Below are positions 41,410 through 47,503 of a DNA stretch of 59,239 bases, in pieces. The position numbers and the translations under genes are program-made. Source of the stretch: Methanomassiliicoccaceae archaeon (GTDB lineage Archaea; Thermoplasmatota; Thermoplasmata; Methanomassiliicoccales; Methanomethylophilaceae); assembly GCA_003557905.1 (NCBI GenBank), contig PWNH01000089.1, positions 1 to 59,239 of the forward strand, read 5' to 3'. The notes beneath the pieces are model-generated. The model was not told the origin of the DNA and did not search any database. It saw only the letters and a list, made by a program, of their open reading frames with translations. Position 1 is the stretch's first letter, and each line of letters starts with the position of its first letter.

Positions 41410-42345
41410 TCATGCCCAATAGGGCTTCTTGACGAACTTGTAGGCGCTGTTGGCAGCCGTGGCCGCCTCGCCACAGGCGGTTACGATCTGACGGTACTTG
41501 CCGGGATATATCACGACATCACCGCAGCCGAAAACACCGGGACGTGATGTTCTCATGTCGCTGTCAACAATGAGAAGCCCATCGGGATCCAGTTCCAATC
41601 CCCATTCCTTGAGGTCCTCGAGGTCAGGCGTGGTGCCTATGTTGATTATCACGAAGTCGGCAGGCAGGTCAACGAGTTCCCCTCCGCAGTCCACGGTAAC
41701 TGATTCAACCGCGTTCTCGCCATTGATGGAAACAGTGTTGGTCTCCAGAAACCGTCTGACGCCACTCCTGTCCAAAGCCTCCACGACGCTCTCATCAGCA
41801 CGGAAACAGTCACGGCGATGTACCAGGGTGGTATCGGCCACACTATCTGCGATTATGGCCATCTCCAATGCGCTGTTGCCACCTCCGATCATGACCACGT
41901 GCTTATCCACCAGACTGTCCTTCTCAGGGAGGACGTAATCCACGCCCCTTCCGTGGAGACGTTCCTCGCCCGGTACTTCGAGTTTACGTGGTTTGAACAG
42001 CCCCATACCTATGGCGACGATGACTGAACGGGATCGGAACTCCTCCTTTTCCCCTCTGACTATGAAACACCCATCACCTTGCTCTATACGCATGGCACGG
42101 AATGACTCCCGTATCTCACAACCCATTGATTCAGCGTGAGCCATGAGTCTCTCGGAGAGTTTCTTGGCCTGTATCTCCGCGAACCCGGGGTAGTTGTGTA
42201 TCCCTTTGTCAGGGTATAGTGATATCAATTGCCCGCCAGCGGATACAGCATCGAGAATAAGGGTACTCATCTTCCTCGACCTGGTGTAGATCCCCGCGGT
42301 CAGTCCCGCGGGGCCAGCGCCGATTATGATGATGTCCCTAATCAT
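41410..42345 (-). CDS. Thioredoxin reductase-like flavoprotein lacking the CxxC redox motif (TrxR-like ferredoxin-NADP reductase type)
   Basis: IIIIGAGPAGLTAGIY, VVMIGGGNSALEMA, GVFGCGDV; no CATC motif at expected position (YVLPEKDSL). Confidence 0.85.
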   Translation of the reverse strand: MIRDIIIIGAGPAGLTAGIYTRSRKMSTLILDAVSAGGQLISLYPDKGIHNYPGFAEIQAKKLSERLMAHAESMGCEIRESFRAMRIEQGDGCFIVRGEKEEFRSRSVIVAIGMGLFKPRKLEVPGEERLHGRGVDYVLPEKDSLVDKHVVMIGGGNSALEMAIIADSVADTTLVHRRDCFRADESVVEALDRSGVRRFLETNTVSINGENAVESVTVDCGGELVDLPADFVIINIGTTPDLEDLKEWGLELDPDGLLIVDSDMRTSRPGVFGCGDVVIYPGKYRQIVTACGEAATAANSAYKFVKKPYWA

Positions 42346-42389: not shown

Positions 42390-42488
42390 CACAAGCAACC
42401 TTTCAGCTCCCGATCATTAATGGTTCGGATCCCGTAGTCAGGAAAAGATTAAATCGCCAGCCCCCAATCGAATCCCCGAGGATTGAAA

Positions 42489-43004
42489 ATGTTGTCAACC
42501 AAAATGGAGAAAGGCCTCAACGATCAGATGGTGGCGGAGACCTACTCTGCTTATCTTTATTGGTCGATGGCCGCCTATCTGCACGATCAGGACTATCCGG
42601 GTATGGGTCATTGGATGGAGTGTCAGGCCAAAGAGGAGCTCTCACACGCCGCCAAGATATTCGCCTACATCATGGAAAGGGGCTCCAAGGCCTCCATGGG
42701 CGCCATAGAGGCCCCGCCGTCGGAATGGGATTCCCCACTGCATCTGATGGACAGCGTCCTGGATCATGAGAGGAAGGTCACCGGCATGATTAACGACCTG
42801 GTCGACATAGCCATTGATGAGAAGGACCATGCCACCCATCAGTTCCTCGCCTGGTTCGTAACCGAGCAGGTGGAGGAGGAGAGCACCGTCTCCTCGATAT
42901 TGTCGCGCATGAAGAAGATGGGCGACTACGTGCAGGGTCTGATAATGCTCGACAACGAGCTCGGAACCCGTGTCCCGTTGTACGATATCATACCAAAAAA
43001 GTAA
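42489..43004 (+). CDS. Ferritin-like (nonheme ferritin)
   Basis: NDQMVAETYSAYLYWSMAAYLHDQDYPGMGHWMECQAKEELSHAAKIF; ATG at 42489 chosen over TTG 42483. Confidence 0.95.
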   Translation: MLSTKMEKGLNDQMVAETYSAYLYWSMAAYLHDQDYPGMGHWMECQAKEELSHAAKIFAYIMERGSKASMGAIEAPPSEWDSPLHLMDSVLDHERKVTGMINDLVDIAIDEKDHATHQFLAWFVTEQVEEESTVSSILSRMKKMGDYVQGLIMLDNELGTRVPLYDIIPKK

Positions 43005-43095
43005 GATATTCTTTATAAACATCTTTCTCAATTTTTACCTAGGAAAAAACCGTGTTTTCACAACCATGATATACTAAAGAACAGATAGTATAAAC

Positions 43096-43560
43096 ATGTC
43101 AGACCTGGCAACCAGCCTTGCCTTGGCTTTTGTGATCATTGGCATACTGCTTCTAATAACCGAAGCGGTCAGTCCCGGGACCTTTTTGGTCGTTCCAGGG
43201 ACCGTGCTTCTGATCCTTGGAGCCATAGGACTAGTCTTCCCCGAGATACTTTTGAGCTGGTGGTCCCCATTGATAGCCGGGTTAGTGATGATACCCACAA
43301 CCATTCTCACGATCAAATTCTATCAGAAACTGGGAACTCCGATTCCTCCTACCACGACCGTTTCAACATCCTTAATCGGACGAACTGGCACGGTCACGGT
43401 AAAGGTCATACCTGGTAATTTGAGAGGGAAGGTGAGGGTGGGTAGCGATACCTGGAGCGCCACATCCCAGAGCGAGATCGAGGTAGGAACCAAAGTCAAA
43501 ATCTTTGGCAGTGAAGGCGTCCACATCAAGGTGGAACCGCTGATAGAGGAGGATAATTGA
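43096..43560 (+). CDS. NfeD-like membrane protein
   Basis: TM segments followed by OB-fold-like LIGRTGTVTVKV..VRVGSDTWSATSQSEIEVGTKVKI; paired with SPFH gene. Confidence 0.9.
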   Translation: MSDLATSLALAFVIIGILLLITEAVSPGTFLVVPGTVLLILGAIGLVFPEILLSWWSPLIAGLVMIPTTILTIKFYQKLGTPIPPTTTVSTSLIGRTGTVTVKVIPGNLRGKVRVGSDTWSATSQSEIEVGTKVKIFGSEGVHIKVEPLIEEDN

Positions 43561-43561
43561 A

Positions 43562-44659
43562 ATGGCAGCAGCAATAATAGGCCTGGTCATTTTCATAATA
43601 CTGGCCGTTCTGATCATACTGATAAGCGGTGTGAAGATCGTGCAGCCTTATGAACAGGCCATATATATGAGGTTAGGAAAATACATAAAGACCTTGGACC
43701 AGGGTTTCAACGTCGTTACACCGTTGATAAACGAGGTCGTCAAGCTCGACCTCAGGACCCAGGTCCTGGACGTTCCCCGGCAGGAAGTCATAACCAAGGA
43801 CAACTCGCCAGTCTTCGTGGACGCTATCATCTACATCAAGGTGATCGACCCCGTAAAGTCGTTCTTCGAGGTCACGAACTACCGTACTGCAACACTGTAC
43901 CTCGCCCAGACGACCCTGAGGTCCGTCATCGGCGAGATGGAGCTGGATCAGATATTCTCCAGCAGGGAGAGCATCAACCTCCAGCTCCGTGACACACTTG
44001 ACGAAAGCACTGATAAGTGGGGCGTCAAGGTGGAGGCCGTGGAGATCCGTGAGGTCGACCCCGCCGCTCGTGTCAAGGAGTCCATGGAGGAGCAGACCTC
44101 GGCAGAGAGGAAGAGGCGCGCCGCCATCCTGGAGGCCGACGGTAAGAAGAGGGCCGCCATCCTCGAGGCCGAGGGTAAGAAGAGGGCCCGCATCCTGGAG
44201 GCCGAGGGGCTGCGTCAATCGCAGATACTCGAGGCTGAGGGAGAGAGGACGGCCATCATCCTGCAGTCGCAGGGAGAGGCCCAGAAGTTGCGTATACTGT
44301 CCCTGGGAGCATCCACTTTGGATTCCAAGGCCATAACCGTGCTCTCACTCGACACGCTGCGTGAGCTCGGACAGGGAGAGGCGACCAAGTTCTTCTTCCC
44401 CATGGAGCTGACACGTCTAGCCCAGGGAATGTCCGAGTACATGGGTACCGGCACCTCCGTTCCTGAGAGGCAGGTTTCCAACCTCAAGGACCTGATCGAT
44501 GCCTTGGGACTCCCCGAGGACATGCTGGGTCCAGTGCCCAAGGTCGAGGAGCTACGCACCGAGATGGAGAATCTCAGTGAGAGCTTGGAGGAGGAGATGA
44601 AGGAATCGACTCAGATAGCCATGGCCGCCTCCCGTAAGCTAGAGGAGGAAGCTCAGTAA
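43562..44659 (+). CDS. SPFH/stomatin-like (slipin) protein
   Basis: IVQPYEQAIYMRLGKYIKTLDQGFNVVTPLINEVVKLDLRTQVLDVPRQEVITKDN; downstream of NfeD. Confidence 0.95.
   Translation: MAAAIIGLVIFIILAVLIILISGVKIVQPYEQAIYMRLGKYIKTLDQGFNVVTPLINEVVKLDLRTQVLDVPRQEVITKDNSPVFVDAIIYIKVIDPVKSFFEVTNYRTATLYLAQTTLRSVIGEMELDQIFSSRESINLQLRDTLDESTDKWGVKVEAVEIREVDPAARVKESMEEQTSAERKRRAAILEADGKKRAAILEAEGKKRARILEAEGLRQSQILEAEGERTAIILQSQGEAQKLRILSLGASTLDSKAITVLSLDTLRELGQGEATKFFFPMELTRLAQGMSEYMGTGTSVPERQVSNLKDLIDALGLPEDMLGPVPKVEELRTEMENLSESLEEEMKESTQIAMAASRKLEEEAQ
44114..44278 (+). repeat. Five consecutive 11-residue (33-nt) repeats in SPFH coiled-coil region
   Basis: RRAAILEADGK/KRAAILEAEGK/KRARILEAEGL/RQSQILEAEGE/RTAIILQSQGE. 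Confidence 0.85.
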
Positions 44660-44723: not shown

Positions 44724-45356
44724 ATGAGAGATGCCTATATGGACGGTGATGACGACCATTCGAATTTGACAGATGGTTTGGGAGGCAAAGGTCTCAAACC
44801 CTGGTCATTCCATGGCAGGCCCGCACTCTTGGTGATGGATATGCAGTCCTTCTTCACTGATGACTGCTCACCGGCATTCCTGCCTTCAGCACCCACAATC
44901 GTGACAAGGTTACGCAGACTCATCGACGGTTTCCGGTCCGCCGGTCTTCCTGTGATATTCACTGTGCATAAGGACGGGGGAGGTCCGATGGAAAGATGGT
45001 GGGGAAGAGGGATGAACGATGAATGGACCCAGGAATTGGCGCTTCAGCCCCTGGATTCCGAGAGCATTTTGATGAAGGATGTCTACGATGCCTTCCACAA
45101 TGGATCCTTGGGGAGACTGCTGAAAGATATGAAGGTCGAGAGCATCGTCATCGGCGGGGTATGCACACATCTCTGTGTGGAATCGACCGTCCGTTCAGCC
45201 TTCTGCCATGGTTTCCAGGTGATAGTCCCATCAGACGGTACGGCCTGTCATGACCGCGAACACCACCGGGCTTCCCTACTCAACATGTCCCATGGTTTCG
45301 CTCATATCGATTCCAGCGACAACATATTGACCAAGTTGGAGACCATCCATGATTGA
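44724..45356 (+). CDS. Isochorismatase-like cysteine hydrolase
   Basis: ALLVMDMQSFF (Asp), SILMKDVYDAFHN (Lys), GVCTHLCVESTVRSAF (Cys). Confidence 0.92.
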   Translation: MRDAYMDGDDDHSNLTDGLGGKGLKPWSFHGRPALLVMDMQSFFTDDCSPAFLPSAPTIVTRLRRLIDGFRSAGLPVIFTVHKDGGGPMERWWGRGMNDEWTQELALQPLDSESILMKDVYDAFHNGSLGRLLKDMKVESIVIGGVCTHLCVESTVRSAFCHGFQVIVPSDGTACHDREHHRASLLNMSHGFAHIDSSDNILTKLETIHD

Positions 45357-46212
45357 AATGGCCGTGGTCGGTGCTGGACCCGCGGGTATGGCTGCCGCAG
45401 TCCAATGCCGCCGGGCGGGCATAGGGGCGGTGCTATTCGAGAAGGACCGTCTCGGCGGCCTGCTAAGGGAGGCGAATCTGGTCGAGAACTATCTTGGTTT
45501 CCCGGGAGGTATTCCCGGTGATGATTTATGCAACATCTTCCAGGAACATGTGATTGTACAGGGTGTCGAGGTCCGTAGGGAAGAGGTCATGCTGATAGAG
45601 CATGATGGAGAGTCATTCATCCTCGTCACTCCCTTGGGTCAATACCGCTCCAGGATGTTGACGATAGCCACTGGCACACTTCCTGCTGCAGCCAGACTCG
45701 GACTTGGCGCGGATAATCGCAGGGTGTTCGATTCCATAAATCATCTAGCAGGGGTAGAAGGACTCTCGGTGGCGGTGATAGGCGGCGGTGATGCGGCCTA
45801 TGACTACTCATTGCGACTTGCAGAGAAAAACAGTGTGACCATCATAAGCCGTGGGCCGCCAAGATGTCTTCCACTTCTGCAGCAGAGGGCGTTAGACAAT
45901 CCTTCAATCGGTTTCCTGGAAGGCCGGACGGTTTTACGGAGCATAAAAGCCGAGGGTTCTGTTACGTTGGTCATGTCACACAATGGCGAAGAGGAGTCTC
46001 TGGAATTCGATGCTTTGCTGCTTGCAATAGGCAGGGTCCCGAACCTATTGATGATCGGGGACTCATTAACGGGGTCATTAGAATCACTTATGAATAATGG
46101 ATTATTGTATATGGCGGGAGACGTGGTGAACGGGGACCGCAGGCAGGCAGCGATAGCGGCCGCCGATGGGATACGTGCCGCCATGTCGGCTCGGGAGGCG
46201 AAGGAAAGATGA
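45349..46212 (+). CDS. FAD-dependent NAD(P)-disulfide oxidoreductase-like (TrxB-like, no CxxC)
   Basis: MAVVGAGPAGMAAAVQC, VAVIGGGDAAYDYSL, LLYMAGDVVNGDRRQAAIAAADGI; overlaps upstream gene. Confidence 0.9.
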   Translation: MIEMAVVGAGPAGMAAAVQCRRAGIGAVLFEKDRLGGLLREANLVENYLGFPGGIPGDDLCNIFQEHVIVQGVEVRREEVMLIEHDGESFILVTPLGQYRSRMLTIATGTLPAAARLGLGADNRRVFDSINHLAGVEGLSVAVIGGGDAAYDYSLRLAEKNSVTIISRGPPRCLPLLQQRALDNPSIGFLEGRTVLRSIKAEGSVTLVMSHNGEEESLEFDALLLAIGRVPNLLMIGDSLTGSLESLMNNGLLYMAGDVVNGDRRQAAIAAADGIRAAMSAREAKER

Positions 46213-47132
46213 TCAGGCTGCTGGCTTCAACGGGCAGAGAGGACATCGCCAAGGTTTATGTGGCCGAGGGCACCGATGGCAATCGATTGGAATTCGTGGA
46301 ATCGATCCAACCGCCGCTGTCAAGGGATGAGAAATGGGTGTTGATAATATCCACCCTTTACGGGTGTCCGGTCGGTTGCCGTTTCTGCGATGCCGGCGGA
46401 TCATATTCCGGTAAGGTCTCCCGTGAGGACCTTTTGGGACAGTTGGACCACATGGTGCTGTCCCGCTATCCCGATGGCAGGGTCCCATCGAAAAAGTTCA
46501 AGATACAGTTCGCCAGGATGGGGGAGCCGGCCTATAACGACGCCGTGCTTGACGTCATGGAGGAACTCCCATCAAGATATGATTCCGATGGACTGCTGCT
46601 GTCCTTGTCAACAATCGCTCCCAGCGGCCGGGAAAAATTCTTCGACAGACTCCTCGACATCAAACGTGACCGTTACCAAGGTCGTTTCCAATTCCAGTTC
46701 TCGCTCCACACCACCGATGAGGAGAAGAGGAGGTGGCTGATACCCTCGCGTACATGGGGCATGGAGGAGATGGCCGCCTACGGAACGGAAATGCGTCGGG
46801 GGGATGAACGCAAGGTCGTATTGAATTTCGCCATCGGAGATGATATGCCCCTCGATCCCGATGTGCTGCTCCATCATTTCGATCCTCATGATTTCATAAT
46901 CAAATTAACGCCGGTGAATCCCACCTTCCAAGCGATGTCCAACAACATATCATCAAAACTCGACGACAAATCGGTGGCATCCAACCTTGAGCAGGCTGGA
47001 TTCGAGGTCATCGTCAGCATCGGAGAGGAGGAGGAGAACCTCATCGGCAGCAACTGCGGCCAATATCTGAAGGCCTATGAGCAGGGAACGCCTCTGCCCG
47101 GCGGTTACACCTATCCGTTGCAGGACATATGA
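46209..47132 (+). CDS. RlmN/Cfr-like radical SAM enzyme lacking the N-terminal accessory domain
   Basis: YGCPVGCRFCDAGGSYSG (CxxxCxxC), FARMGEPAYND, FIIKLTPVNPT, C-terminal IGSNCGQYL resembling RlmN ACGQL. Confidence 0.88.
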   Translation: MIRLLASTGREDIAKVYVAEGTDGNRLEFVESIQPPLSRDEKWVLIISTLYGCPVGCRFCDAGGSYSGKVSREDLLGQLDHMVLSRYPDGRVPSKKFKIQFARMGEPAYNDAVLDVMEELPSRYDSDGLLLSLSTIAPSGREKFFDRLLDIKRDRYQGRFQFQFSLHTTDEEKRRWLIPSRTWGMEEMAAYGTEMRRGDERKVVLNFAIGDDMPLDPDVLLHHFDPHDFIIKLTPVNPTFQAMSNNISSKLDDKSVASNLEQAGFEVIVSIGEEEENLIGSNCGQYLKAYEQGTPLPGGYTYPLQDI

Positions 47133-47503
47133 AAGAAAACAAGGTACTCTTGGCTCTATATGGGACGCTCCGTAGTGGCGGGAGCCTCCATGAATCATAC
47201 CTTGTCCATCGTTCTCAATGCATCGGCAAAGGTAAGGTGGATGGTTATGCGATGATGGTGTGTCTTGATGAATGGTTCCCAAGAGCATTCCACGATGCCG
47301 ATGAATCCGTCGTTGTTGAGGTATTCAGCATGGATCCTGAGACTGCCAAAAGGATATCCGTAATGGAATTGAGCGCAGGTTACAGGATCGAGGAATGTTC
47401 CGTTTCATTGGATGATGGCGAAAAGGTCAAAGCGATGATCTTCGTCTGCGAAGGCGCCAGGAAAGGTTGCAGGAAAGTCCCAAGTGGAGATTGGATGCCC
47501 TGA
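47129..47503 (+). CDS. Gamma-glutamylcyclotransferase-like (AIG2/GGCT) protein
   Basis: LLALYGTLRSGGSLH motif, ATGA overlap with upstream gene. Confidence 0.87.
   Translation: MKENKVLLALYGTLRSGGSLHESYLVHRSQCIGKGKVDGYAMMVCLDEWFPRAFHDADESVVVEVFSMDPETAKRISVMELSAGYRIEECSVSLDDGEKVKAMIFVCEGARKGCRKVPSGDWMP

Follow-up and report, generated by a model that had tools for sequence, protein, structure and literature searches.

A conserved module of a cysteine hydrolase, a flavoprotein and a short RlmN-like radical SAM enzyme in bacteria and archaea

Three genes – encoding an isochorismatase-superfamily cysteine hydrolase, a thioredoxin reductase (TrxR)-fold FAD/NAD(P) flavoprotein and a short RlmN-like radical SAM enzyme (rSAM) – are a genuine conserved functional unit whose association goes far beyond chance. 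The window that we analyzed, a 59,239-nucleotide contig from a Methanomassiliicoccaceae archaeon (PWNH01000089.1), belongs to an assembly of 1.56 Mb that is 86% complete. An earlier note, made from the letters of the window, had described the three genes together with a downstream gene for a GGCT/AIG2-like protein as a cassette of four overlapping reading frames. Its coordinates and overlaps proved exact (Table 1): 8 nt between hydrolase and flavoprotein, 4 nt between flavoprotein and rSAM, and 4 nt between rSAM and GGCT-like gene. Its family calls were borne out by profile matches to PF00857 (isochorismatase, 2e-34), Pyr_redox_2 (2.4e-17), Radical_SAM (1.4e-4, under the cut-off) and GGACT (4.5e-17), respectively.

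Table 1. Coordinates of genes and residues in the window and of phage mini-proteins (locus:positions)
Feature	Position	Strand	Remark
Second TrxR-fold flavoprotein	41410-42345	-	no CxxC; ~2.4 kb upstream of the cassette
Ferritin-like, NfeD-like and SPFH/Band 7 genes	42483-44659	+	ahead of the cassette
Isochorismatase-superfamily cysteine hydrolase, 210 aa	44724-45356	+	core component
Hydrolase triad D39	44838-44840	+	D-K-C
Hydrolase triad K118	45075-45077	+	D-K-C
Hydrolase triad C151	45174-45176	+	D-K-C
TrxR-fold FAD/NAD(P) flavoprotein without CxxC, 287 aa	45349-46212	+	core component
Short RlmN-like radical SAM enzyme (rSAM), 307 aa	46209-47132	+	core component
rSAM E28	46290-46292	+	equivalent of RlmN E105
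rSAM Ile46	46344-46346	+	position of RlmN resolving Cys118
rSAM cluster cysteines C53/C57/C60	46365-46388	+	Cx3Cx2C
rSAM carrier cysteine C283	47055-47057	+	aligned with RlmN C355
GGCT/AIG2-like protein, 124 aa	47129-47503	+	genus-restricted passenger, outside the conserved module
Phage mini-proteins	L087:4679-4801, L088:4630-4761, L089:4919-5164, L137:3483-3779		

Conservation and spread of the module

Relatives of the rSAM at 39–75% identity were found at 67 loci when 85,462 species genomes were scanned. Hosts include Thermoplasmatota, Methanoculleus, Thermococcus, Asgard archaea, Thermotogota, Bacteroidota, Ignavibacteriota, Acidobacteriota, WOR-3, Zixibacteria and Cloacimonadota, among others. 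Gene neighborhoods were compared at 76 loci that contain a reading frame for the rSAM, nine of them from relatives. In ~58 of these, which span no fewer than twelve phyla of bacteria and archaea, the hydrolase, flavoprotein and rSAM genes are adjacent, and many loci show a 4-nt overlap between the flavoprotein and rSAM genes. The order hydrolase–flavoprotein–rSAM is kept in 57 loci (flavoprotein and rSAM being fused in one), and the genes stay together in an altered order at L068 and L071 (flavoprotein–rSAM–hydrolase once, rSAM–hydrolase–flavoprotein once). Flavoprotein and rSAM occur without an adjoining hydrolase at 13 loci, at one of which (L030) the hydrolase is cut by the contig end. The rSAM stands alone at four, three of them at most ~1.7 kb from a contig end. 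Beyond these three, no gene family recurs as a constant neighbor.

The conserved unit thus has three genes instead of the four first proposed. Co-occurrence outside close relatives had been named beforehand as the observation on which the cassette would stand or fall; the hydrolase, flavoprotein and rSAM co-occur across many phyla, and the GGCT-like gene does not. It was seen beside the module in the window's genus only, where two genomes (G000 and G001) have it, G002 lacks it behind the rSAM, and an inserted 486-codon transposase-like ORF (L152:1319-2779) interrupts it in G005. The protein shares the YGTLRSG motif and PF06094 with GGACT/AIG2-like gamma-glutamyl cyclotransferases, but its gene is not conserved with the module. 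This gene is dispensable – a local hitch-hiker that is no part of the process – and a four-gene unit, genus-restricted and transposase-broken in one relative, was dropped. Because the gene is confined to part of one genus, the gamma-glutamyl substrate that had been suggested has no support.

The genes also keep company in trans. Among the 13 genomes without an adjoining hydrolase, 12 encode a high-scoring family hydrolase elsewhere (205–313 bits), and in four of those 12 (L117, L118, L119 and L126) a family-like flavoprotein adjoins the distant hydrolase. The rSAM is carried by 47 of 296 Thermoplasmatota genomes. By our reading of the separate rSAM and hydrolase tables, 46 of the 296 encode both, one the rSAM only, three the hydrolase only and 246 neither (Fisher p 4e-49, a statistic that ignores phylogeny). 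Hydrolase scores were bimodal, with the family above ~200 bits and paralogs at or below 172 bits; two hydrolase fragments at 164–166 bits both lie in rSAM carriers. The sole rSAM-only genome (G088) is 68% complete. As for the hydrolase-only genomes, the rSAM is cut by a contig end in G051, the locus of G144 is at a contig edge and G129 is 69% complete. The flavoprotein was left out of these genome-wide counts, since its family profile does not separate cleanly from ordinary TrxR scores. The three proteins are also co-inherited: across 58 loci, their pairwise identities are correlated (Spearman 0.59–0.64; 0 of 500 permutations).

Bacterial and archaeal sequences are intermixed in a quick rSAM tree. 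In this tree the window's genus clusters with Acidobacteriota, Fibrobacterota and Aminicenantes, apart from the other Methanomassiliicoccales (SH-aLRT 95), a placement suggestive of transfer. The bacterial frequency sample, which covered one phylum (that of the Bacteroidota bin G336), gave 3 of 199 genomes. On plasmids the only match was a distant one: an RlmN-type protein in which the second cysteine is present. Family f8, probably the Aciduliprofundum group, includes carriers whose genomes are complete in one contig; the module may therefore have a cultured host.

Operon neighbors yielded no metabolic clue, CstA, MtnA and ABC ATPases being sporadic. In two WOR-3 genomes the hydrolase gene directly follows one for a CstA-like transporter (L034:2810-4462 and L035:2046-3659), with a 4-nt overlap in the former. 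In the window, the order of the ferritin-like, NfeD-like and SPFH/Band 7 genes ahead of the cassette is also kept at the same-genus locus L019. Further upstream, on the opposite strand, the second TrxR-fold flavoprotein looks like a TrxR-type ferredoxin-NADP reductase. None of the four proteins matched a PADLOC component model, and a reading as an anti-phage defense system was dropped on this account. The earlier note knew of no named pathway with this gene set, and we likewise found no description of the module in the open-access literature.

The three encoded proteins

The rSAM is structurally closest to RlmN. Its AlphaFold model (pLDDT 94.7) gave RlmN structures 6fz6, 5hr6 and 3rfa as best Foldseek matches (TM ~0.67–0.73; E ~1e-13 to 1e-15), followed by Cfr 9p0p. 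Besides this fold, it shares with RlmN and Cfr the Cx3Cx2C motif, the cysteine of the C-terminal CGQ loop, an equivalent of Glu105, and GEP and NP motifs. The cysteines of the radical SAM motif, read correctly in the earlier note, are invariant in 68 of 68 homologs, as are E28 and C283, each on its own.

The methyl carrier of RlmN is C355, which E105 deprotonates, and C118 is indispensable for resolving the protein–RNA crosslink; the electron donor that resets the cysteinyl radical is described as unidentified (PMC9692996). Profile alignments equate rSAM C283 with RlmN C355, and residue 46 with RlmN C118 and Cfr C105. The resolving cysteine is absent from all 76 sequences, in which this column holds I, L, M, T or V. 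Unlike RlmN and Cfr, the rSAM also lacks the N-terminal RNA-binding stretch ahead of the SAM barrel: its alignment to TIGR00048 (RlmN) starts at position 79 of 355, and that to Cfr 9p0p at Cfr residue 66. RlmN and Cfr models were its best NCBIfam matches, far short of their cut-offs: it scored 34 bits against TIGR00048, for which the cut-off is 290, and fell under all the others. A further difference is that it has two constant partner genes and, by alignment, invariant polar residues of its own – K98, Q100, R103, Q163, K202, N206 and K232 – most of which fall in columns that differ in RlmN and Cfr. These family-specific residues suggest a changed pocket and a substrate that is small and polar or anionic.

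Judged by its sequence, the rSAM is not an RlmN or Cfr enzyme but a relative that has lost one of the two catalytic cysteines. Since the definition of class A requires two cysteines, it falls outside that class. Most non-archaeal hosts also carry a canonical RlmN: RlmN scored over the cut-off in 14 of the 20 carriers tested (all non-archaeal or unclassified bins) and just under it in two more. The module is therefore not the rRNA methylase of those 14 carriers, and a role as a replacement RNA methylase was judged unlikely on the same count. The window's genome has no RlmN-family match besides the rSAM.

The flavoprotein model (pLDDT 96.2) adopts a TrxR fold, with a best TM of 0.89 to 5u63. Fold and glycine-rich FAD and NAD(P) dinucleotide motifs are retained in common with thioredoxin reductases and TrxR-like ferredoxin-NADP reductases. 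Unlike these, and as the earlier note had remarked, it has no CxxC; indeed there is no conserved cysteine whatever in 68 homologs. It also differs in clustering with the rSAM and in being sometimes fused to it: a single ORF encodes both proteins in a member of the Ignavibacteriales (Ignavibacteriota; L063:5164-6906, 581 aa, linker absent) and in a member of the Thermoplasmatota (L105, 622 aa, linker of ~40 aa). These fusions are the best evidence that flavoprotein and rSAM act together. The proposal that the flavoprotein donates electrons to the rSAM thus gains ground in one part – the link between the two is backed by fusions in two distant phyla and by frequent gene overlap – and its electron-transfer chemistry is something we infer.

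The hydrolase shares its fold and D-K-C triad with EntB, RutB, biuret hydrolase and nicotinamidase of the isochorismatase superfamily. The triad is intact, as had been claimed: K118 and C151 are invariant in 55 of 55 homologs and D39 is conserved at 90% or more. The closest PDB profile match is isochorismatase 2fq1, in which the nucleophilic cysteine is missing at the aligned position; the hydrolase thus differs from the aligned EntB chain in having this cysteine, and also in its conserved WW motif. The window protein scored below every named NCBIfam cut-off, missing RutB, biuret hydrolase and nicotinamidase all by far, and matches to named subfamilies were weak across the 55 homologs.

Proposed function and alternatives

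Our leading reading, which we hold tentatively and at a little less than an even chance, takes the module as an autonomous, horizontally spread set of three enzymes in which a methyl-cysteine rSAM acts on a small polar substrate, its own flavin reductase supplies the power and the hydrolase handles an amide. Electrons from NAD(P)H would pass through the FAD of the flavoprotein to the rSAM, there to serve reductive SAM cleavage or regeneration of the carrier cysteine. With the help of Glu28, the rSAM would load a methyl group from one SAM onto Cys283, and a second SAM would turn the methyl-Cys283 into a methylene radical that adds to an sp2 carbon, not in rRNA but in a metabolite that is small and polar or anionic. 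Because the RlmN-type resolving cysteine is missing, resolution of the covalent adduct would fall to another residue or to electrons from the flavin. The hydrolase would cleave an amide or related bond, in either precursor or product, and the GGCT-like gene would stand outside this process. Substrates related to NAD, nucleotides or cobamides were considered and set aside for want of evidence.

The proposed scheme bears on RlmN itself: a relative with genetic ties to what appears to be its own flavin reductase, two fusions included, makes the question of the RlmN-type reset electron directly testable. If the rSAM acts on a metabolite, the module would represent an undescribed anaerobic pathway common to bacteria and archaea, with Asgard archaea, Thermotogota and Thermoplasmatota among its hosts.

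The flavoprotein might instead be a dehydrogenase or reductase that works on a pathway intermediate, the three genes then encoding three successive steps on one small molecule. A TrxR fold devoid of any redox cysteine would suit such a role, as would the four loci at which hydrolase and flavoprotein are paired with the rSAM elsewhere. Fusion of flavoprotein and rSAM in two distant lineages and their 4-nt overlaps in many loci argue for a direct partnership, though substrate channeling could also explain a fusion, and we consider this division of labor unlikely.

With the resolving cysteine lost, Cys283 could also have another role, for example as an H-atom donor or thiyl radical. It would then be no methyl carrier and would serve as a donor or radical relay in an epimerization, reduction or rearrangement and be re-reduced by the flavoprotein. 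Having just one extra conserved cysteine, with the RlmN-type resolving cysteine absent throughout, and a flavoprotein partner that is nearly always there, the rSAM would suit this chemistry. The invariance of Glu28 speaks against it, its RlmN equivalent being the residue that deprotonates the methyl-accepting cysteine (PMC9692996), and we rate such a role as improbable.

Much the same low probability attaches to an RNA-modifying system in which the rSAM, like RlmN, methylates a tRNA or rRNA nucleotide with the help of accessory enzymes. The retained RlmN fold, CGQ motif and E105 equivalent would be expected of such an enzyme, but the region before the SAM barrel and the resolving cysteine are both missing, most bacterial carriers have a canonical RlmN as well, and the hydrolase would have no obvious role.

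That all four genes are chance or weakly linked neighbors with independent housekeeping roles is hardly credible: the description holds for the GGCT-like gene, and for the three core genes it is already refuted by adjacency kept in two domains, co-occurrence in trans, fusions and co-divergence.

Phage relatives of the radical SAM protein

Distant relatives of the rSAM (26–32% identity) are encoded by phages and are of at least three kinds. Several unrelated phages (Moorella phage MTATph1, Kehishuvirus 'tikkala', Pectobacterium phages, Yersinia phage P778 and Vibrio phage D479) encode a core that stops short of the carrier cysteine. A separate mini-protein of 40–98 aa, encoded just downstream of the truncated core, bears this cysteine in an AACGQ motif; its consensus is about GF/Y..G.A.AT..E...AACGQ. 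The truncated cores also lack the resolving cysteine and have R103, Q163, K202, N206 and K232 in common with the window family. When two mini-proteins were searched against 50,697 phage records, matches were confined to phages that also matched the rSAM or to near-identical sister phages. Core and mini-protein apparently form a split enzyme with a free methyl carrier, as far as their sequences tell. We found no description of a split enzyme of this kind in the open-access literature.

A broader reading, which we regard as doubtful, is that the module belongs to an undescribed cross-domain pathway in which the rSAM, with its carrier cysteine kept and its resolving cysteine replaced, represents a new class of radical C1 transfer. 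A dedicated NAD(P)H flavoprotein would close the cycle, and the wider clan would include phage enzymes with a free-standing carrier mini-protein.

In Vibrio phage D479 (L142, record positions 195027-195308), the mini-protein is duplicated in tandem and has two AACGQM motifs. Another type of short phage RlmN-like protein (L138, L139, L140, L141 and L143) has both catalytic cysteines and no N-terminal RlmN domain. In Vibrio phage PS17B-2, a short two-cysteine RlmN-like gene adjoins genes for nicotinamide phosphoribosyltransferase and PRPP synthetase.
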